Notes under the pieces: model-generated
What the model was told of the DNA's origin: nothing
The model's input: the letters and a program-made list of their open reading frames with translations, nothing else
The model's database searches: none
Assembly (NCBI GenBank): GCA_013289785.1
Contig: JABCZE010000011.1
Location: 1 to 13,661 of the forward strand
Source: Vulcanimicrobiota bacterium
Lineage (GTDB): Bacteria; Vulcanimicrobiota; Vulcanimicrobiia; Vulcanimicrobiales; Vulcanimicrobiaceae
Reading direction: 5' to 3'
Length of the DNA stretch: 13,661 nucleotides
Translations under genes and position numbers: made by a program
Shown here: in pieces, positions 2,923-13,661 of the stretch
Layout of the letters: each line of letters begins with the position of its first letter
How positions within the stretch are numbered: the first letter of the stretch is position 1

Positions 2923-3900
2923 ATGCGTTTACTTACCTCGGTACTTTGTGCAACCGTCGCGAGCACCTTGCTCCACGGCTGCGCCGGCAGCTTCGCGGCT
3001 CCAACGTCGCGTGCCGTGCAGCTCCGCCAAGAGCGGCCGCGCGCAGCAAAAAAGATTCCATCAAGCGGAATTTACATTTCGCAGTTCTATGGTAGCGAGA
3101 TCTTAGGCTACCCATCCAAGAACAAGCTGCACCGGCTACCGCTTTGCAACCTCCGCGCAGGCATGTACGTCAACGACGTCGCGGTCGACGGCCAGGGCAA
3201 CCTGATCGTTCCCAGCGGCGCAAGCCAAAACGTCGTCGTTTACCAGGGTCCGGAGATGTGCGGAAAGCGGCTCGGAGCCTTCCACGATCCGTACGGACAG
3301 CCGTCGGACGTGGCGAGCCAGGACGCCGCGAACGGAAAGATCGCTGTTGGAAATATCCGCGACCACGGCAGCTCGGCCGGCAGCCTCTCGATCTGCACGC
3401 TGCGAGCCGGCTGTACGAGCAACCTAACCAATCCGAAATTAAACGCAGCCGGCGGAGTCGCAATGTCCAACGGCGGCGACTGCTGGGTCGATGCAATGCG
3501 CCATCCCGCCGGCGGTGCGGCGCTGATCTACTTCAAGGGCTGCGCGGGCCAAGGTCAAGTGGCCAGGGGTTTCCGCAGCAAGTCCTACGGTGGAATCGAT
3601 ATCGATAACCAGGGCAACCTCGCGATCGTCGATCAGGCGGCGTCGACGGTCTCCATCTACGGCGGGTGTAATCCCAGCTGTACTCGCGTCGGCGGCCCTT
3701 ATCGGATCAAAGCCAAAAGCTTTTTCGGCAAGCTCAACGCCGCGAACACCGACTTCGTCGCCGTCGATCAAACCAGCGGCGCGGTCGACTTCTACTCCTA
3801 CAGTACCAAGGCAATCAAGTTCGAGTACTCCTTCAGACGCGGCCTGCAAATCGACCTAGCTCCCCAGGGCGTCGCTCAAAATCCCCGCTCGGCGCAGTAG
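2923..3900 (+). CDS. Cys-rich NHL/SMP-30-like repeat lipoprotein, paralogue 1
   Basis: A predicted 325-residue secreted lipoprotein without a known function. Residues 1-19 form a signal peptide (MRLLTSVLCATVASTLLHG), and Cys20 follows in a lipobox-like LHGC. After a short basic linker (about 21-46) comes a domain with repeats of the form VNDVAVDGQGNLIVP, GGVAMSNGGDCWVD and GGIDIDNQGNLAIVD, typical of NHL/SMP-30 beta-propeller blades. Eight further cysteines (75, 113, 158, 164, 187, 207, 249, 253) recur in the next gene, suggesting up to four disulfides outside the cytoplasm. The start has only a weak TAAGG that overlaps the stop of the upstream DUF5069 gene, which implies translational coupling. 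A ligand or enzymatic role cannot be deduced. The residue after the lipid Cys is Ala, not Asp. Confidence 0.85.
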   Translation: MRLLTSVLCATVASTLLHGCAGSFAAPTSRAVQLRQERPRAAKKIPSSGIYISQFYGSEILGYPSKNKLHRLPLCNLRAGMYVNDVAVDGQGNLIVPSGASQNVVVYQGPEMCGKRLGAFHDPYGQPSDVASQDAANGKIAVGNIRDHGSSAGSLSICTLRAGCTSNLTNPKLNAAGGVAMSNGGDCWVDAMRHPAGGAALIYFKGCAGQGQVARGFRSKSYGGIDIDNQGNLAIVDQAASTVSIYGGCNPSCTRVGGPYRIKAKSFFGKLNAANTDFVAVDQTSGAVDFYSYSTKAIKFEYSFRRGLQIDLAPQGVAQNPRSAQ

Positions 3901-3993: not shown

Positions 3994-5049
3994 ATGCGTT
4001 TGTTTACTTCGGCGCTCTGCTCGGTGGTCGCGATCGGCCTCATCAGCGGTTGCGCCAGCAGTGTGTCGCCCTCCAATAGCTCGATTCCCGGCGTCGGCTC
4101 CGCAACGCGCCCGATCAGTGTGTACGACGACTTCACGCCGGTGCGCGCGATCTCGGTTCTTCACGAGATCGTTCCGGAGGCAAAGAAGAAGCCACCGACC
4201 ACCGGAATCTACGTCTCGGAGTTCGGTGAGACCGACCTCTTGGGTTACGCTGCGGACAACAAAGCCAATAAGGCACCGATCTGCACGGTCCAAGGCGTTT
4301 CAAGCGTCAACGGCGTTGCCGTCGACCTCAAGGGCAATCTGATCGATCCCGATGGCGGAAGCGGATATGTCATCGTTTACAAAGGTCCGGGAATGTGCCC
4401 GAAAAAGCAACTCGGACTGATCTCCGACACCTACGGTCAGCCCTCCGATGCGTCGACCCCCGACGGCGCGACCGACACGATCGCGGTCGGCAACATCGTC
4501 GGTAAGAGCTCGACGCCGGGAAGCCTGTCCCTCTGCACCCTCGCAGCCGGCACGTGTACGACGAACCTCACCAACGGCGCCATCTACCACGCGGGCGGCG
4601 TCGCGATGTCGCCCGGCGGCGACTGTTGGCTCGACGCGAAGACGAGTTCCACCGGCGGCGCGGCGCTGATCTACTTCAAAGGCTGCGCGGGCGGCGGCGT
4701 TGCGGCCAAGGGCTTTAAGCAGACGTACTACGGTGGAATCGATATCGACAACAAGGGACAGTTAGTCATCAACGACCTCGATGGCGAAGACACCTACATC
4801 TACAGCGGCTGCAATCCGACTTGCAAAGTCGTCGGCGGCCCCTTCGCGCTCAAAGGCGAAAGCTTCTTCGGCAAACTTAATGCAGCAAACACCGACTACG
4901 CCGCCGTCGACCGGACCAACGGCGATGTCGACATCTACTCCTACACCGGCAAGGCGATCAAGTACGAATACAGCTTTAGCAAAGGCATTACGCTCAGCTC
5001 GAGCATCGTTCCCGAAGGAGTCGCACAACTTCCGCGTTCCAAGGAATAG
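3994..5049 (+). CDS. Cys-rich NHL/SMP-30-like repeat lipoprotein, paralogue 2
   Basis: A predicted 351-residue secreted lipoprotein, a paralogue of the preceding gene. It begins MRLFTSALCSVVAIGLISGC, a signal peptide with lipobox ISGC and lipid-anchor Cys20. The linker after the anchor is about 20 residues longer than in copy 1 and is rich in Ser and Pro. The propeller-like part has VNGVAVDLKGNLIDPD, GGVAMSPGGDCWLD and GGIDIDNKGQLVIND. Cysteines at 97, 135, 181, 188, 211, 231, 273 and 277 match those of copy 1 one for one. Other shared stretches are GGAALIYFKGCAG, SFFGKLNAANTD and GVAQ.PRS near the C-terminus. The ATG is supported by AAGGAGA at 3979-3985. The function is unknown; a surface or periplasmic binding or scaffold role is only a guess. 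A strong terminator follows at 5083-5116. Confidence 0.87.
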   Translation: MRLFTSALCSVVAIGLISGCASSVSPSNSSIPGVGSATRPISVYDDFTPVRAISVLHEIVPEAKKKPPTTGIYVSEFGETDLLGYAADNKANKAPICTVQGVSSVNGVAVDLKGNLIDPDGGSGYVIVYKGPGMCPKKQLGLISDTYGQPSDASTPDGATDTIAVGNIVGKSSTPGSLSLCTLAAGTCTTNLTNGAIYHAGGVAMSPGGDCWLDAKTSSTGGAALIYFKGCAGGGVAAKGFKQTYYGGIDIDNKGQLVINDLDGEDTYIYSGCNPTCKVVGGPFALKGESFFGKLNAANTDYAAVDRTNGDVDIYSYTGKAIKYEYSFSKGITLSSSIVPEGVAQLPRSKE

Positions 5050-5082: not shown

Positions 5083-5116
5083 GCGGGCTCGCTTCGGCGA
5101 GCCCGCTTGCATTTTT
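5083..5116 (+). terminator. Rho-independent terminator after the lipoprotein pair
   Basis: A perfect 10-bp stem (GCGGGCTCGC, 5083-5092, with GCGAGCCCGC, 5097-5106) is closed by a TTCG tetraloop and followed on the plus strand by TTGCATTTTT. It lies 33 bp after the second lipoprotein stop. The T-run overlaps the stop codon of the convergent ddl (5115-5117). The same hairpin is just downstream of ddl on the minus strand but has no T-run there, so termination in that direction would be weaker. Confidence 0.92.
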
Positions 5117-6068
5117 ACGCGACCGCGTCGCGAAGCTGGGCCCGCGCGAGCGCGTAGTTGACGAGGCGTTCGATCAACGCGTCGAAGCCGATTCCGACCG
5201 CGGCACAAGCATCGGGCAACAGGCTCGCGGGGGTTAACCCGGGGAGCGAGTTGATCTCTAACAGATAGGGCCGGTTGTCCGAGCGAATGATGAAGTCGCT
5301 GCGAGAGTAATCCCGTAAGCCCAGCAGCCGGTGCGCCGAGAGGCCGAGCATCTGCAAGCGCGCCGCCAAATCTTCGTCGATCTTCGCAGGAACGACGTGG
5401 GTGCTGCCGCCGGGCGCGTATTTTGCGTCGTAGCTGTAAAACCCGTCGCGGTTGGCGACGATCTCGACGATCGGCAACGCCTCTTCTCCCAGAACGGCGC
5501 ACGTGAACTCGCGCCCCTCGACGTACTCCTCGGCTAGTATCTGCGCGTACGACTTCGAGGCCTCGAGCATCGCGTTGGTCCACTCTTCGTGCGTCCGCAC
5601 GATCGTGACGCCGTTCGACGACCCTTCGTAGCGCGGTTTGATCACCAGCGGCAGGTCGAGCGATCCCGGCAAGAGCGGCAGCGTTCCGCCCGCAAGATCG
5701 AACAAATCCCAGACGGGAGTCGGCAGGCCTTCGGCCGCGAGCAACTTCTTGGTGAGGTGTTTGTCCATCGAAAGCGCCGCCGCTTCCAAACCGCTGCCGG
5801 TGTACGGAATCGAAAGATACTCGAGCAGCGCCTGAACGTGCCCGTCCTCGCCGCCGGGACCGTGCAGCGCGATGAAGACGACGTCGGGCTTGTATTGGTG
5901 CAGCGCCTCGATAAAGCGCTCGTCGTAGTCGAGCGATCGCGCCTCGTAGCCAAGCGTTTGCAACGCGCGGAGGACTTCAGAGCCGGACCGGATCGAGATC
6001 TCGCGTTCGCCGCTGGTGCCGCCCATCACCACGGCAACCCTGGCCCGGGACCCACCGTTACGTTGCAT
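5115..6068 (-). CDS. ddl: D-alanine--D-alanine ligase
   Basis: An ATP-grasp ligase that makes the D-Ala-D-Ala dipeptide added to the UDP-MurNAc tripeptide. It has 317 residues from the ATG at 6068, a normal size. Visible motifs: GGTSGEREIS with the substrate Glu (about 21), LHGPGGEDG (69-76), KPRYEGSSNGV (144-154) for ATP binding, YSYDAKYAPGG (omega loop, about 211-221), RSDF (256-259) and LEINSLPGLTP (270-280) with the metal-binding Glu and Asn. The Tyr in the omega loop fits a D-Ala-D-Ala rather than a D-Ala-D-Lac enzyme. The start is supported by GGAG at 6078-6081, 9 nt upstream. The longer open frame to 6326 overlaps murB and is rejected. The start overlaps the murB stop by 11 bp. It is the last gene of the operon. 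Confidence 0.96.
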   Translation of the reverse strand: MQRNGGSRARVAVVMGGTSGEREISIRSGSEVLRALQTLGYEARSLDYDERFIEALHQYKPDVVFIALHGPGGEDGHVQALLEYLSIPYTGSGLEAAALSMDKHLTKKLLAAEGLPTPVWDLFDLAGGTLPLLPGSLDLPLVIKPRYEGSSNGVTIVRTHEEWTNAMLEASKSYAQILAEEYVEGREFTCAVLGEEALPIVEIVANRDGFYSYDAKYAPGGSTHVVPAKIDEDLAARLQMLGLSAHRLLGLRDYSRSDFIIRSDNRPYLLEINSLPGLTPASLLPDACAAVGIGFDALIERLVNYALARAQLRDAVA

Positions 6069-7014
6069 CGATAAAGACTCCAACCAGATGCACTTCCAAA
6101 AGCAGCTCGATACCGCAGCGATCGAGCACCGCACTTCGGATTCGTGCGAGCAGCGTGGCGACGTCGCGCGCCGTCGCACCGCCAACGTTGTTAATAAAGT
6201 TCGCGTGCAGCGATGAGACTTCCGCGCCGCCCTCCCGCCACCCCTTAGCCCCGACGGATTCGATGAGCGCGGCAGCCTTTCCACCGTCGGGGTTGCGAAA
6301 GCACGATCCGGCGTTGGGGAGCGCAATCGGTTGAGTCGCCTTGCGCCGCACGAGGCGCGTCTGCATCTCTTGGCGCACGTCGCGCGAGTCCGCGCAAGGA
6401 AATGCGAGCGTCACCGCCGACACGACGACGTCGCGCTCGAGCGTCGAATGGCGGTATAAATAGCGTACGCTGACGCGATGGGGCTCCGGCCGGCTCGGTG
6501 ATTGAACCCAAACGTCGCGGACGAAATCGCCGATTTCACGATCGGTGCCGGCATTCATCCGCAGCGATCCACCGACCGTTCCGGGAATGCCCGCTAGCGA
6601 CCCGATCCCGGCGGCGCCGGCCGAGGCCGCCTTCGCGGTGACCAATGCCATGCCGGCCGACCCGCCGGCCTCGACGACGACGTTGCCGTCTTCCGGGTGC
6701 ACCTCGACCGCCGCGAAGCCGCCGGCCAGCCGGATCACGATGCCGCGGACGCCGCCGTCGCCGACGAGCACGTTGCTCCCCGCGCCGACGACCCACCACG
6801 GAAGCTTGCGACGCAAGCACAGCCGCATCAGTTCCGCGAGTTGCGACTGCGTTTGCGCAGTTACCAAGGCATCTGCCGGACCGCCGATCTTCCACGAGGT
6901 ATACGGCGCAAGCGGCTCGTCGAACCGCACCCCGTCGCCGAAGATCGCAAGTAGCGCTTCTCGATCGACCGGCTCGAGGAGGCTGTGCAGCGCCTGTCGC
7001 GTGGTGACGCTCAT
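6058..7014 (-). CDS. murB: UDP-N-acetylenolpyruvoylglucosamine reductase (MurB)
   Basis: An FAD- and NADPH-dependent enzyme that reduces the enolpyruvyl group of UDP-GlcNAc-enolpyruvate to give UDP-MurNAc. It has 318 residues. The FAD domain shows YTSWKIGGPAD (38-48), VGAGSNVLVGDGGVRG (76-91) and GIPGTVGGSLRMNAG (142-156). The reductase domain has QP-ALPNAGSCFRNP (about 228-242) with the proton-donor Ser, LHANFINNVGGATA (269-282) and a late Glu in LLEVHLVG (about 307). This arrangement is that of type II (Gram-positive-like) MurB rather than the E. coli type. The ATG shares ATGA with the murC stop (7011-7014), and no separate ribosome site is seen, so translation is probably coupled to murC. 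Confidence 0.96.
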   Translation of the reverse strand: MSVTTRQALHSLLEPVDREALLAIFGDGVRFDEPLAPYTSWKIGGPADALVTAQTQSQLAELMRLCLRRKLPWWVVGAGSNVLVGDGGVRGIVIRLAGGFAAVEVHPEDGNVVVEAGGSAGMALVTAKAASAGAAGIGSLAGIPGTVGGSLRMNAGTDREIGDFVRDVWVQSPSRPEPHRVSVRYLYRHSTLERDVVVSAVTLAFPCADSRDVRQEMQTRLVRRKATQPIALPNAGSCFRNPDGGKAAALIESVGAKGWREGGAEVSSLHANFINNVGGATARDVATLLARIRSAVLDRCGIELLLEVHLVGVFIDAT

Positions 7015-8366
7015 CCGCGCGCCGCTGCCGCCAGACGTCCGGCGACGTCGGTGATGTTTCCGGCCCCGAGCATCAGAACCAGGGCGCCGGCCGGGGCCTC
7101 CGCCAGGATGCGGGCCTCGAGGTCGTCGACGCTAGCCACGTAGCTCACGCGCCCGCCGTTGATCGCGAGCGAGTCGCCGATGGAGCGTTCGCTCACGCCG
7201 GGAATCGCGGGCTCCGACGCCGCGTAGATCGGCGTGAGGTAGACGCTATCGGCGCCGCGCAGCGAGTCGGCAAACTCCGCCGCCAGATAGGCCGTGCGCG
7301 AATAACGATGCGGTTGAAAGGCTACGACCAGCGTGCCGCGATGGTAGTGGCGCGCCGCCGCGATCGTGGCACGAACGGCAGTGGGGTGATGCGCGTAATC
7401 GTCGACGATCGTCACTCGATCGTTGGAGAGCAAGATATCGAAACGGCGGCGTACGCCTTGAAACGATTTCAGCGACGCGGCGATTGAGGCGAACGGCAAC
7501 TCGAGCGCGCGTCCCACCGCCAACGCAGCAAGCGCGTTCTGAACGTTCATCGCTCCGGGCACTCGCAACTCGACGGTGCCGAGCGTGACGTCGCCGTCGA
7601 GCGCGTCGAACGTCGAGCCGAAATCCTCAAAGCGTACGTTGGCCGCTCGAATGCGTGCGTCTGCCGCCAAGCCGCAGGTTACCAGACGGGCCCGAAGCTC
7701 GTGACAGGTTAGCGAAGCCGCGAGCGCGTTGTCGACGCCGACGATAGCGAGGCCGTCGTCCGGTAACTTCGCCAAAAACTCGCCGAAGGCGCGCACCAAG
7801 CCCGGAAGCTCGTCGTCGCTGGTCAGGTGATCGTTTTCGACGTTGGTAACGATTGCGATGTTCGGTTCCAACAAAGCAAAAGAGCCGTCAGATTCATCGG
7901 CCTCCGTCACGAACCAGGGCGACGTTCCGTCGTAGGCGTTGGTTTCCAGCGACACATCGAGGCCGCCCAGCGAAAGACCGGCATCGATCCCTCCGCCGCG
8001 CAGGACGGCATGCGTCATCGCGGTCGTGGTCGTCTTTCCGTGCGTTCCGCAGACCGCGATGCCGCGCCGCCCCGAAAGTAAACGCGCGAGCATCTCGCCA
8101 CGATGTAAGACCGGCGTTCCGGCGCGCACGGCGGCGACGTACTCCGGATTGGCGCGATCGATCGCCGAGCTGACGACTACGACGTCGGCCCCGCGAACGT
8201 TGGCGGCTTGGTGGCCGATCGTAACCCGAATGCCCTCGCCGCGCAGACGTTCGATCAGCGGCGTCTCGGCAACGTCCGAACCGGTAACCTCGACGTTGCG
8301 CGCGCGCAAAATGCGAGCGATCGCGCTCATGCCGATGCCGCCGACGCCGACGAAATGGTACGTCAC
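7011..8366 (-). CDS. murC: UDP-N-acetylmuramate--L-alanine ligase (MurC)
   Basis: A cytosolic ATP-dependent ligase adding L-Ala to UDP-MurNAc, the first step of stem-peptide assembly. The GTG at 8366 gives 451 residues, the usual length. The N-terminal domain opens YHFVGVGGIGMSAIARIL. The central ATPase domain has the P-loop GTHGKTTT (107-114) and EADESDGSF (155-163). The C-terminal domain has DDYAHHPTA (322-330) and the MurC hallmark FQPHRYSRT (350-358). The start is supported by GAGGAAGG at 8374-8381, 7 nt upstream, and by the glycine-rich motif beginning right after it. The open frame reaching 8456 would overlap murG and is not used. It is 13 bp from the murG stop, the only real gap among the junctions of this operon, and the murC site overlaps the murG stop. 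Confidence 0.96.
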   Translation of the reverse strand: MTYHFVGVGGIGMSAIARILRARNVEVTGSDVAETPLIERLRGEGIRVTIGHQAANVRGADVVVVSSAIDRANPEYVAAVRAGTPVLHRGEMLARLLSGRRGIAVCGTHGKTTTTAMTHAVLRGGGIDAGLSLGGLDVSLETNAYDGTSPWFVTEADESDGSFALLEPNIAIVTNVENDHLTSDDELPGLVRAFGEFLAKLPDDGLAIVGVDNALAASLTCHELRARLVTCGLAADARIRAANVRFEDFGSTFDALDGDVTLGTVELRVPGAMNVQNALAALAVGRALELPFASIAASLKSFQGVRRRFDILLSNDRVTIVDDYAHHPTAVRATIAAARHYHRGTLVVAFQPHRYSRTAYLAAEFADSLRGADSVYLTPIYAASEPAIPGVSERSIGDSLAINGGRVSYVASVDDLEARILAEAPAGALVLMLGAGNITDVAGRLAAAARG

Positions 8367-8373
8367 CCCAGCG

Positions 8374-8381
8374 CCTTCCTC
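8374..8381 (-). promoter_or_regulatory. Shine-Dalgarno site for murC
   Basis: The minus strand reads GAGGAAGG, then 7 nt, then the GTG of murC. It overlaps the murG stop codon. It supports the GTG at 8366 as the true start in the one junction where genes do not overlap. Confidence 0.7.
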
Positions 8382-9483
8382 AAACCAGGGTATCGATCCG
8401 CGCAAGGATCTGCGCCAACGGATCGTTTTGAGCCAGCTGACGAGCGTTGGACGCAAGCGTTGCCAGGCGCTGCGGCGCCGTTGCCTCGGTCAGCACGCCC
8501 GGCAAAGCTCCGGATGCAAGCTGCTGATCGGTCACTACCAGCGCCGCACCGGCAGCTTCAAAGCGCGCCGCATTCGCCCGCTGATGCGCCTCGGTTGCAA
8601 ACGGATACGGCACCAAAACCGCGGGCTTGCCAAGTGCCGCCAGCTCTCCGAGCGTCGACGCTCCGGCTCGCGCTAGAACCAAGTCCGCGACGGCGTAGGC
8701 GTCGCCCATCTCGTCGAGATACGGAAGCGCCACAAACGTTGCGACTCCTGCCTCTTTTGCCGCGCGCACGGCCGCGCAAACCTTGTCGTACTCGGCCGCA
8801 CCCGTGAGCGAAAGCACTTGCCAGCCCGCTGGGAGCGCATTGCTCTTTAGCGCTCCAAGCAGCGCGTCGTTGATCGCGCGCGCCCCCTGGCTGCCACCGA
8901 TTGCCAGAAGCACCGGCTTGGCGGGATCGAGTCTCAGACGCGTGGCGGCCGTTTCGCGCGACGGCAAGCTTCGGAGCGAAGAGCGAACGGGAACGCCCGT
9001 CGGCCGGCATTTAGCCCGCAGGTGTTTCGCAAAACCACCGCACTCGCCCCAAATCTCGTCCACCATCGGCGCCAGCAACCGCGTCGTCAAGCCCGGCGCG
9101 AGATTGGGTTCGAGCAAAACGATCGGCGCGCGCGAGAGCCCCACGAGCTTGCGGATGCGTGCGGCGAGCGCGACCGGAAAGCAGACGTAACCGCCGGTGG
9201 CGACGACGAGATCGGGACGCGCCGAGGCTAAGAGCGCGAGGCTTTGGAGCGTTCCTTTAACGTTACGCGCAGCGGCTCGAAGAAAATCGAACGATAGACG
9301 CCGCGGCAGCGCGTGAGCGGAGACGGTGTGGAGCGGATAGCCGGCCTTCGGCACGATCGTCGTTTCGAGGCGATCGGCGCTGCCGATGAAGGCGATCGTC
9401 GCGCGCGAGCGCAGCGCGTCGGCAATCGCGATTGCCGGATAGAGATGGCCTCCGGTACCGCCGCCGGCAAAAACGACGGTCAC
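8380..9483 (-). CDS. murG: UDP-GlcNAc:lipid I GlcNAc transferase (MurG)
   Basis: A GT-B glycosyltransferase at the inner face of the membrane that adds GlcNAc to lipid I to make lipid II. It has 367 residues from the GTG at 9483. Motifs: FAGGGTGGHLYPAIAIADAL (5-24) for acceptor and diphosphate binding, VATGGYVCFP (about 94-103), the donor-site loop IGGSQGARAIND (about 195-206), RAGASTLGELAALGKP (272-287) with the nucleotide-sugar Glu, and VPYPFATEAHQRANA (291-305). The family EQN..PG segment reads EPNLAPGL here, a small variation. The start shares GTGA with the ftsW stop (9480-9483). The longer frame to 9663 is antisense-like filler over ftsW and is rejected. It lies between ftsW and murC, the order usual for dcw clusters. 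Confidence 0.96.
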   Translation of the reverse strand: MTVVFAGGGTGGHLYPAIAIADALRSRATIAFIGSADRLETTIVPKAGYPLHTVSAHALPRRLSFDFLRAAARNVKGTLQSLALLASARPDLVVATGGYVCFPVALAARIRKLVGLSRAPIVLLEPNLAPGLTTRLLAPMVDEIWGECGGFAKHLRAKCRPTGVPVRSSLRSLPSRETAATRLRLDPAKPVLLAIGGSQGARAINDALLGALKSNALPAGWQVLSLTGAAEYDKVCAAVRAAKEAGVATFVALPYLDEMGDAYAVADLVLARAGASTLGELAALGKPAVLVPYPFATEAHQRANAARFEAAGAALVVTDQQLASGALPGVLTEATAPQRLATLASNARQLAQNDPLAQILARIDTLV

Positions 9484-10649
9484 AGGGCTGCGTGGACTCT
9501 GCGATGGCGACCCACATTGGCAATGAGTGCAACGGCAATGAGATTGACGACCAGCGAGCTTCCTCCGAACGAGATGAACGGCAACGGAACGCCGGTCACC
9601 GGCCACGACGACGAAACGACGCCGATGTTCACGAAGGCCTGAATCGTGATCATCGCGCCGCATCCGATCGCGAGAAAGAACCCAAACCGGTCGGGTGCGG
9701 CCAAGGCGATCTTGATGGCACGGTAGGCCAGCGTCACGAAAAGCGCGACGACCACCAGCGTGCCGATGAGGCCCAGCTCTTCACCGAGCACCGAGAAGAT
9801 GAAGTCGGTGTACTGTTCGGGCAAATAGAAGAACTTCGCGCGCGACGCGCCCAGCCCCACGCCGAAGATTCCTCCGCTGCCCAGTGCCAGCAATGACTGA
9901 ACGATGTGAAAGCCGGTGTTGAGTGGATCCTTCCACGGATCGACGAAGGCAAAGACGCGCGCGCGCCGGTATGGGCTGGCCAGCACCGTAAAGACCGCGA
10001 ACGGAACCGTCGTTAACGCGATCGCGGCCAGATGAACCAGGCGCGCTCCGGCTGCAAAGAAGAGCGCGAAAGCCGTAAAGAAGAGGAGGCTTGCGGTGCC
10101 CATATCCGGCTCTTTGAGCACCAGCACCGCCATGATTGCCACCGGAACGCAGAGCGGAAAGAGCCCGCGCCCAAGCGACGTAATCCGTTCGCCGCGCGAC
10201 GACAAGACCGCCGACAGGTAGATGACCAGCGCGAGTTTGGAGAACTCCGACGGTTCGAAGCTAAAGCTCGCCGTGCCGATCCAGCGGCGCCCGCCGTTCA
10301 CGCCGAGCCCAACGTGCGGCACGAAGACCATCGCCAGTGCAACGATCGCGGCGGCCAAGAGGTATGGCGCCGCGCGACGCAGGCGCTGATACTCGAGCCG
10401 GTAGCAAAAATAGGCGCCGCCTAGTCCGACCGCGAGCCAAATCAACTGCCGCTTGAGGTAGTAGGCGACGTCCCCATGCTCGGCATACGCCGTCGCGCTC
10501 GACGCCGAGAACACCATAACCAGGCCGATGGCGACCAGCGCCGCGACCGTCGTGAAGAGCCAGACGTCGAGTGGCGCCGCGACGTACGAGCGCAGGCGGG
10601 ACTTGCGTTCCGCATCGCGATTGGCGCGAAGCGCTGCAGCGTTATGCAC
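9480..10649 (-). CDS. ftsW: SEDS peptidoglycan polymerase FtsW
   Basis: A polytopic membrane glycosyltransferase of the SEDS family that polymerises lipid II at the septum together with a class B PBP. It has 389 residues with about ten hydrophobic segments. Conserved parts: FSFEPSEFSKLALV, KEPDMGTA (179-186), NTGFHIVQSLLALGSGGIFG, a LPEQYTDFIFSVLGEELG stretch with the catalytic-type Asp about 282, and GVPLPFISFGGSS (353-365). Its place between murD and murG argues for FtsW rather than RodA. Two starts compete. The ATG at 10655 has GGGAG only 1 nt away, while the GTG at 10649 has the same GGGAG (10657-10661) 7 nt away, so I prefer the GTG. The overlap with murD is then 8 bp (14 bp for the ATG). 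Confidence 0.94.
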   Translation of the reverse strand: MHNAAALRANRDAERKSRLRSYVAAPLDVWLFTTVAALVAIGLVMVFSASSATAYAEHGDVAYYLKRQLIWLAVGLGGAYFCYRLEYQRLRRAAPYLLAAAIVALAMVFVPHVGLGVNGGRRWIGTASFSFEPSEFSKLALVIYLSAVLSSRGERITSLGRGLFPLCVPVAIMAVLVLKEPDMGTASLLFFTAFALFFAAGARLVHLAAIALTTVPFAVFTVLASPYRRARVFAFVDPWKDPLNTGFHIVQSLLALGSGGIFGVGLGASRAKFFYLPEQYTDFIFSVLGEELGLIGTLVVVALFVTLAYRAIKIALAAPDRFGFFLAIGCGAMITIQAFVNIGVVSSSWPVTGVPLPFISFGGSSLVVNLIAVALIANVGRHRRVHAAL

Positions 10650-12038
10650 CCGCATGCTCCCGTTGCGACGTGACCGCCGCACTAAACCGTTCGCCGCGAT
10701 CCTCGGCCGAGTTAAACATATCGAACGACGCGCAGCCGGGCGAAAGCAAGACGACGTCGCCGGGTACGGCCAGCTCGCGCGCGCGCTGTACGGCCTCTTC
10801 CATCGAGAACGCATCGACGACGGCGACCTCGCCGGCCGCCCGCCGAATTTCGCCGGCCGATTCGCCGATTGCAACCAGCGCCTTGACGTGCTGCGCGATC
10901 GCCGATCCCAGCTCGCCGAATCCGATGCCTTTCGAACGGCCGCCCGCGATCAGCACGATCGGCCGGTCGTAGCTGCGCAGCGCCGCGACCACCGAAGTTG
11001 GAATCGTCGATTTCGAATCGTCGACGTAGAGCACGCCGTCGATCTCGGCAACCGTCTCGAGGCGGTGCGGCATCGGCGCAAACGATCGTATCGCATCTCT
11101 CAGCGAGGCCGGGTCGCAGCCGACCGCCAGCGACGCGAGCAGCGCCGCCATAACGTTCTCGATGTTGTGAGCGCCCTGCAGCGGTATTTCGCTGCACGGC
11201 AAGAGCGCAATGGGGCGCGGATCGCCGGTAACCGGGGCGTAGGTTATCACGTCGTCGCGTAAGTACATCGTGGCGCGTTCGCTCCCGTTGCGTGTAAACC
11301 AGAGCTGGCGCGCTTGGACGCGAGCGTTGCCGTGGCGCCACGCGAGAGCTTCGATTCGCGGATCGTCAAGGTTGCCGACGAACCAATCGCTCATCGACTG
11401 ATTGGCACAGATGCGGTACTTGGCTTCGGCATACTCATCCATCGAAGGGTACCGGTCGAGATGGTCGGGCGCGATGTTGAGTAAGACGGCGACGCGCGGT
11501 TTGAACGCACGAATCGTTTCGAGCTGAAACGACGAGACCTCGGCGACGATCCAGTCGGCAGACGTCGCCCCGGCGATCTCCTTGATGAGCGGATTGCCGA
11601 TGTTCCCGCCGACTCGAGCCTGACGACCGCAACCACGAAGCAGATGTCCGATCAGCGCCGTGGTGGTCGACTTTCCCTTGGTACCGGTGACCGCAACGAT
11701 CGGCGCCTTGCAAAGCCGATAGGCAAGCTCGATCTCTCCCATGACCGGCACGTCGGCCCGGTGAATGGCGCGGACGACCGGGGAGATCGGTGGAACGCCG
11801 GGCGATAGCACCGCCCAGGAAATCGTTTGGAGGATGCCGTCAAGCGCGCCGGGCTCCACGAAGCGCGCGCCGAACGACTCCGCCGCCGCGATTGCTTCGC
11901 TCAAGGCTTCCACGGGCTTCTCGTCGGTCGCGTAAAGGGAGACGTTATGGTGAGCGAGGACTTCCAAGCTCGCTAGTCCGCTACGGCCCAAGCCTATGAC
12001 GAGTATCGCATCGCCGGCGTGAAGTTCAAGCGTATCGG

Positions 12039-12042
<4 letters not shown>
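10642..12042 (-). CDS. murD: UDP-N-acetylmuramoyl-L-alanine--D-glutamate ligase (MurD)
   Basis: A cytosolic ATP-dependent ligase that adds D-Glu to UDP-MurNAc-L-Ala. It has 466 residues from the ATG at 12042. The N-terminal Rossmann-like domain has LVIGLGRSGLASLEVL. The P-loop is VTGTKGKSTTT (118-128), followed by GGNIGNP (145-151), EVSSFQLE (168-175) and NIAPDHLDRYPS, with the probable carbamylated Lys at about 208. The C-terminal domain shows PHRLE, VDDSKSTIP, AGGRSKG and LSPGCASFDMF, all typical of MurD. The start shares ATGA with the mraY stop (12039-12042). An earlier in-frame ATG at 12057 lies deeper in mraY and has no better ribosome site. The ORF beginning at 12120 is therefore too long. 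Confidence 0.95.
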
Positions 12043-12997
<955 letters not shown>

Positions 12998-13001
<4 letters not shown>

Positions 13002-13661
13002 CCGTGCGCGCAGCCCCTCGCGCCATTTAGCAGGGGATTATCGCCGGATCCGCGCCACTTGAGCACCACGATCGGGGTCTGTTCGTCGCTGTTGCCGTGC
13101 GGGTTGTCGAGCAGCGCCGCTTCGACGCACGCCGCGCAGACGTTGCCGGATGCGCCGAGAACCTTTGCCTTCTCCAAATCGTTGGCGTCGACGACGGCGC
13201 AATCGATGCCGCAGCGCCCTTCGAAGTCTCGCGCGAACGCATCGGGGTCGCGCGGAGCAAAGACGATGGCCCGTTCGTAGGGCGGCATCGTGCCGGTGTA
13301 GCCGTCGAAGGCCGCAATCGCCTCGCCCATCAACTCGTAAAAGACACCGCGGCGGCCGGCGAGACGGCCTGCCAAGTGGGCCAACGTAGCATAAACTGCT
13401 CTTGGATATCCGACTCGATCGATAACCAGCTGCATGGACTCGGGCTGGCTGATCGTCGCCATCGGCCCCGCATAACGGCAGAGCAGATACGCTAGCTTCG
13501 ACGGCCGCACGCGCTCGGCAACGACGAACTCGCCTTGGGCGATCGCAAGCGCCGTCTCCGAAATGGCGACGACGTCGCCGGCTCGCGCGATGCCGGCCAC
13601 CGCCTCCGAAACCAATGCGGCGAGGTCGTCACCGGGCCGCACCAAGCGTGTGCGAACCGGG
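12998..13661 (-). CDS. CofE/F420:glutamate-ligase-like protein (5' end outside window)
   Basis: About 220 residues are visible. The frame is open to the right edge (PVRTRLVRPGDDLAAL), so only a short N-terminus is probably missing. RPGDDLAALV, AGDVVAISETALAIAQGE and the closing DEQTPIVVLKW resemble the coenzyme F420-0:gamma-glutamyl ligase fold (PF01996/COG1478). They are closest, from memory, to the divergent branch in bacteria such as cyanobacteria, which are not known to make F420. Other segments are TISQPESMQLVIDRVG, TGTMPPYERAIVFAP and VVDANDLEKAKVLGAS. In CofE a conserved Asp-Thr pair binds metal; here the matching spot seems to read Asp-Ala. A CAAC pair and a Gly-rich tail (RGSGDNPLLNGARGC) follow. 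It is not MurF: there is no GTNGKT P-loop. The stop overlaps the mraY start, which implies a role linked to wall precursors, though the substrate is unknown. Confidence 0.72.

Follow-up and report, generated by a model that had tools for sequence, protein, structure and literature searches.

A CofE-like gene between murF and mraY in Eremiobacteria-class genomes and its relatives beside mreC and mreD in Cloacimonadota

The CofE-like gene and the murein operon of the window

The window, which is the whole 13,661-nucleotide stretch of DNA that was analysed, carries a series of wall genes on the minus strand with a CofE-like gene immediately upstream of mraY (Table 1). The open frame of this gene at 12998-13660 (-) translates to 220 residues, and because the contig itself stops at base 13661 the protein is truncated, with about 22 N-terminal residues missing relative to full-length relatives. 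All four motifs quoted by the first-pass annotation, including RPGDDL, VVDANDL and DEQTP, were found in this translation, and the ATGA that it described is indeed shared by the CofE-like stop and the mraY start. The same annotation stated that the gene upstream of mraY encodes not MurF but another protein. That is correct for this gene, but murF is not missing and is the next gene upstream in the Eremiobacteria-class loci that reach that far, so a role as a stand-in for MurF was rejected. The source genome is 66% complete and yielded one CofE-like copy. A relative is encoded in 55 of the 60 genomes of the phylum, own genome counted, and this conservation excludes chance as the origin of the gene and its overlaps. 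A 4-base overlap is possible at the cofE-mraY junction in 32 of 40 loci and at the murF-cofE junction in 31 of 40, and both are upper counts because, among the possible starts, the one whose overlap came closest to 4 bases was taken.

Table 1. Features of the window (E57, D141, D180 and N182 follow the numbering of the full-length relative L026)
Feature	Positions	Strand	Remarks
CofE-like gene	12998..13661	(-)	5' end cut by contig end; about 22 N-terminal residues missing
Glu codon (E57)	13556..13558	(-)	invariant; GDVVAISE motif; Ser40 in compared CofE
Asp codon (D141)	13304..13306	(-)	invariant; DxxTGTxPPY motif
D180 to N182 codons	13181..13189	(-)	DxND motif; D180/N182 aligned with Asp150/Asn152 of A. 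fulgidus CofE
ATGA	12998..13001	(-)	cofE-like stop overlapping mraY start
mraY	12039..13001	(-)	PF00953 7.5e-35; MraY signature 0.00055, just under its cut-off
murD	10642..12120	(-)	Mur ligase domains; longest open frame, start near 12042 likelier
ftsW	9480..10874	(-)	named by reading; longest open frame
murG	8380..9663	(-)	named by reading; longest open frame
murC	7011..8456	(-)	named by reading; longest open frame
murB	6058..7014	(-)	named by reading
ddl, D-Ala-D-Ala ligase	5115..6326	(-)	PF07478 and PF01820; longest open frame

On the strand opposite the wall genes lies an adjacent, similar pair of putative lipoproteins, named by reading (2923-3900 and 3994-5049, +), neither of which had a Pfam match at E 0.001. 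A DUF5069 protein (PF16798; 2356-2910, +) is encoded between this pair and a citrate-synthase-like open frame, also named by reading.

Family membership, retained residues and F420 markers

The window protein matched PF01996 at 5.5e-12 and 46.1 bits (cut-off 25) over residues 2-82, the first third of the protein, and the profile exceeded its cut-off in 53 of the 60 genomes, with one copy each. A structural comparison, performed with VIA-align on the top 345 chains selected by Foldseek and valid for folds within that selection, recovered the CofE fold over most of the protein length, with 25% identity to A. fulgidus CofE (2G9I, 2PHN, 7ULD) over the structural alignment. The CofE-family likeness proposed at first pass is therefore supported. 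The CofE equivalog models were not reached by the full-length relative L026, which scored 25.4 against 180.65 for TIGR01916 and 22.6 against 274 for NF009809. With these scores and the loss of CofE-invariant residues, gamma-glutamyl transfer as such, which the first-pass annotation had suggested, is unsupported.

In a MAFFT alignment, Lys45, Ser40, Gly153-Arg157 and Trp176, which are invariant in the compared CofE proteins (a narrow set of 14 sequences picked from 120 listed for the A. fulgidus protein), are replaced or deleted in the CofE-like branch, with Asp in place of Gly153. The branch also carries insertions after position 93 and around the TGTxPPY loop. We take Lys45, Asp109 and Asp150 of CofE to be nucleotide or metal contacts, and with Lys45, Ser40, Arg154-Arg157 and Trp176 lost, the nucleotide site may have changed or disappeared. 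The family itself retains 17 invariant residues, acidic and amide ones and the equivalents of Asp150 and Asn152 among them. D141 falls opposite CofE residue 114 in the alignment; its pairing with Asp109 comes from reading the motif, and the position is unsure. The GxxGxFY motif follows a moderately hydrophobic helix, whose mean Kyte-Doolittle value ranges from 0.76 to 1.58 among the groups. A stretch that contacts F420 in CofE (according to an excerpt of PMC10861534) is absent from the branch. We conclude that the CofE-like gene is real and that it belongs to a previously undescribed branch of the CofE family.

The gene is annotated as coenzyme F420-0:L-glutamate ligase, and it is thus named after an F420 enzyme that its carriers seem unable to use. 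The first-pass annotation had seen no F420 gene nearby, and the genomes bear this out: neither CofH (TIGR03551) nor CofD (TIGR01819) was found over cut-off in any of the 60 genomes of the phylum, the 66% complete source genome included, with sub-cut-off matches in 57 and 26 of them, respectively. Control searches for both pass in three archaea. CofD was found over cut-off in 2 of 38 carriers outside the phylum (21 of the 38 being Cloacimonadota), both labelled actinobacteria, which indicates that the search is able to detect CofD. PF01933 matched in 56 of the 60 genomes, but these matches do not mean CofD, because the stricter TIGR01819 gave none over cut-off and E. coli also matches PF01933; we take them to be YvcK-type proteins. 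The sub-cut-off CofH matches are presumably menaquinone (Mqn) radical-SAM relatives. MK-9 is reported for Vulcanimicrobium alpinus WC8-2 (in an excerpt of PMC9758169). A part in F420 synthesis was rejected on the two missing markers. A folate role was likewise rejected: FolC exceeded its cut-off in 56 of the 60 genomes, own genome counted, and in 35 of the 38 carriers outside the phylum, and TIGR04132 (NCBI: putative folate gamma-glutamate ligase) gave no match for L026 and 12.5 against 350 for the anchored L071.

Genomic placement and phylogeny

We surveyed Eremiobacteria-class neighbourhoods in two sets. The first contains 41 loci (L021-L059, L065 and L068; one labelled Rhodospirillales and several only 'bacterium'), with murF directly upstream in 40 of 41 and mraY directly downstream in 40 of 41, both exceptions being contig ends. 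The second contains 20 loci (L143-L162) drawn from additional genera and families within the 60 genomes; of these loci, L143, L145, L146 and L157 repeat first-set contigs, and both neighbours were present in all 20. The mraY linkage reported at first pass is thus kept in every Eremiobacteria-class locus that could be read. A protein outside the CofE fold, a full F420 pathway or an mraY linkage lost in relatives would each have spoken against the earlier reading, and none of these was found. Wherever the contigs reach, murC, murE and murF are present. The murD slot varies, with a murD match in some loci, only a weak murC or murE match in others and no match in L027; no textbook Mur step was seen to be missing.

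Five of the 60 genomes gave no CofE-like match (G005, G059, G018, G004 and G039). In G005, which is 95% complete, the contig ends inside murF and the lack of a match is an assembly gap. In G059, murF overlaps mraY with no CofE-like gene between them. In G018, the murE-murF-mraY contig (L120, G018:C95) encodes proteins 31-46% identical to the reference proteins; since the genome is called the same family, this contig may be foreign.

The phylum of L067, a locus labelled Cloacimonetes, was represented by 98 sampled genomes, and 84 of them gave a CofE-like match. We read 40 of these 84 loci, namely the 20 best-scoring (including L067) and those of 20 of the 21 lowest-scoring genomes, a fragment in G250 being omitted. 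The gene mreC lies upstream in 39 of 40, as L089 begins at the CofE-like gene, and about 880 bases intervene in L131. All 40 have mreD and/or mrdA downstream; a match to mreD, with E values as high as 0.1, was obtained in 18 of the 20 best-scoring and 19 of the 20 lowest-scoring loci, and mreB was seen in 19 and 16, respectively. In L067, Pfam confirmed MreC, MreD, PBP2 and RodA. One family therefore sits inside two different wall operons in two lineages, with conserved linkage to murF/mraY in one and to mreC/mreD/mrdA in the other. If wall genes make up 2% of all genes, chance would produce both placements about 4 times in 10,000, a post hoc estimate that serves as a rough guide. Separately, Cloacimonadota genomes G065, G267, G271, G281, G284 and others contain open frames of about 930-970 residues with a weak match to the Mur-ligase-related FolC model, perhaps fused Mur ligases.

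A longer, anchored form occurs elsewhere. In the phylum's other classes (G055-G058; 34-42% identity) it has about 400 residues, including a hydrophobic segment at the N terminus and an additional domain, and it lies outside the murF-mraY gap in those read; in G057 it directly follows ddl. Its N-terminal domain gave no usable sequence match (E 0.6 and worse). L070 (5299-6000) and L071 (296-1087) both have an NAGPA (phosphodiester glycosidase) gene upstream of the anchored form, with ddl between the two genes in L071. In the phylum of the Synechococcus-labelled L060, at least 30 of 146 sampled genomes matched, with frames of 370-484 residues; this is perhaps a lower bound, as the search was seeded from short words. 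The anchored form was present in all 12 loci read among these 30. The cyanobacterial gene run (L105-L110 and L113-L117) consists of the anchored CofE-like protein, a GNAT-like protein (Pfam match in 3 of 6 scanned), RuvX, DUF3727 and a HAD protein; MltG (YceG) is also part of it in 2 of the 11 loci. The identified neighbours are mostly other than wall genes and the link to the wall is weak here. According to Lys/Arg counts, the soluble part of the anchored form faces the cytoplasm in 15 of 16 proteins.

In L061-L064 and L066 (Bacillota and actinobacteria labels) the CofE-like domain lies in frame behind a glutamine-hydrolysing asparagine synthase in proteins of 874-945 residues, a fusion identified by reading in the five loci and by Pfam in L062. 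Two fusion-carrying Bacillota-labelled genomes also have separate standalone copies (L111 5921-6688 and L112 3516-4220), which fall beside the fusions in the tree.

In a phylogeny of 65 rows, a single branch separates each of seven labelled groups from the remainder, though weakly for the fusion group (88/61), and CofE stands off on a branch 2.75 changes per column long. The relative order of the main groups lacks firm resolution. The anchored forms from the phylum's other classes cluster with the cyanobacterial ones (98/94) and not with the short Eremiobacteria form, so plain vertical descent within the phylum does not account for the short form. This grouping could reflect transfer or old paralogy. 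Given the separate placement, a single function for the short and anchored forms is an assumption.

Candidate function and comparison with known systems

Because it lies between murF and mraY in every class locus read and beside mreC/mreD in another phylum, the CofE-like gene should serve the wall. This reading draws on the CofE fold, the strict operon placement in the loci read, the absence of two F420 markers, the second wall operon and the anchored homologues. We propose, with moderate confidence, that the protein is an envelope carboxylate-amine ligase acting on a peptidoglycan precursor. It would work at the cytoplasmic membrane's inner face, where it would activate a carboxylate by forming an acyl phosphate, in the way that CofE treats F420-0, and couple an amino acid or ammonia to it. 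It could act after MurF, on UDP-MurNAc-pentapeptide, or after MraY, on lipid I/II, and candidate sites are the free alpha-carboxyl groups of D-Glu and of meso-DAP; the AsnB fusion would fit amide formation. We infer catalysis, nucleotide use, the stem peptide as acceptor and the group joined alike. If a precursor is modified, this would add an extra step to one of the best-studied bacterial pathways. A broader version, which we put forward only tentatively and would sooner doubt than assert, is an old wall-enzyme family on the CofE fold across Eremiobacterota, Cloacimonadota, cyanobacteria and some actinobacteria, which would add a ligation step acting on the peptidoglycan precursor in the inner leaflet. 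If true, the muropeptides of whole phyla would depart from the textbook form, and wall ligation would have a common ancestor with F420 glutamylation.

Several observations weigh against the ligase proposal. Operon position indicates co-expression and not substrate, no textbook Mur step is seen to leave a vacancy for the protein, and the short form stands apart from the anchored forms of its own phylum, which themselves lie outside the murF-mraY gap in the genomes read. The G059 operon is arranged without the gene, and the cyanobacterial neighbours point mostly away from the wall. The main doubt comes from the loss of Lys45, a nucleotide contact in CofE, alongside Ser40, Arg154-Arg157 and Trp176. 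It is this loss that feeds the strongest rival, in which ligase chemistry has been lost and the protein is a regulator or scaffold that senses a nucleotide or precursor, its target being MraY in one phylum and in another the MreC/MreD complex, whose activity it would tune. Placement beside membrane proteins of two wall machines rather than beside one chemical step, together with the existence of anchored forms, fits such a role, but the 17 invariant residues and the amidotransferase fusion look like catalysis, and we consider it unlikely.

Somewhat less likely again is an envelope ligase that acts not on the stem peptide but on some other lipid or glycan of the inner face, for instance a phospholipid or an undecaprenyl-linked polymer. 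The CofE homologue gene qimC in a wall-modification operon of Streptococcus pyogenes (excerpt of PMC13059722), the NAGPA gene at two anchored loci and the hydrophobic helix before GxxGxFY would suit it, but the two strictest placements are among peptidoglycan genes and the helix may be simply buried core. A folylpolyglutamate synthase of the FolC2 kind that lies in the wall operon by happenstance is already disfavoured and very improbable: CT611 of Chlamydia trachomatis, a CofE homologue, complements an E. coli folC mutant and chlamydiae are described as lacking folC (excerpt of PMC1971073), but the carriers examined here mostly have FolC and L026 does not match TIGR04132. A CofE of an F420 pathway, for which PF01996 membership speaks, is already refuted by the missing CofD and CofH and the lost F420-contacting stretch, short of an unrecognised route.

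We found no description of the CofE-like wall family or its wall linkage in the literature searched, which excluded most subscription journals. The nearest published case is QimC, a CofE homologue likewise encoded within a cell-wall-modification operon, although that operon is quorum-regulated and is not the core murein operon; in the excerpt of PMC13059722 available, its authors call the contribution of QimC unclear, with no single deletion made yet. QimC looks closer to true CofE, given its RMSD of 0.969 to 2PHN (same excerpt), and it is set apart here by description and not by sequence. Chlamydial FolC2 (CT611, COG1478) is a CofE-family protein in bacteria without F420 and as such a precedent for a CofE relative with another job (excerpt of PMC1971073). 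It differs from the present family, whose carriers mostly keep FolC, whose short form has wall-gene neighbours and which leaves the FolC2-like model unmatched. The five in-frame fusions recall AsnB-type meso-DAP amidotransferases, and AsnB amidates meso-DAP in Listeria (PMC8554201), whereas the scanned Eremiobacteria and Cloacimonadota proteins have no amidotransferase domain. CofE itself uses GTP to activate a carboxylate to which Glu is joined, and is described as strongly similar to MurD, which resembles it mechanistically in the acyl-phosphate ligation of glutamate in wall synthesis but is non-homologous to it (excerpt of PMC10861534); a murD is present in the window's operon. The origin of CofE was called unclear in a 2021 review (excerpt of PMC8498797), and the CofE-like branch described here bears on that origin.
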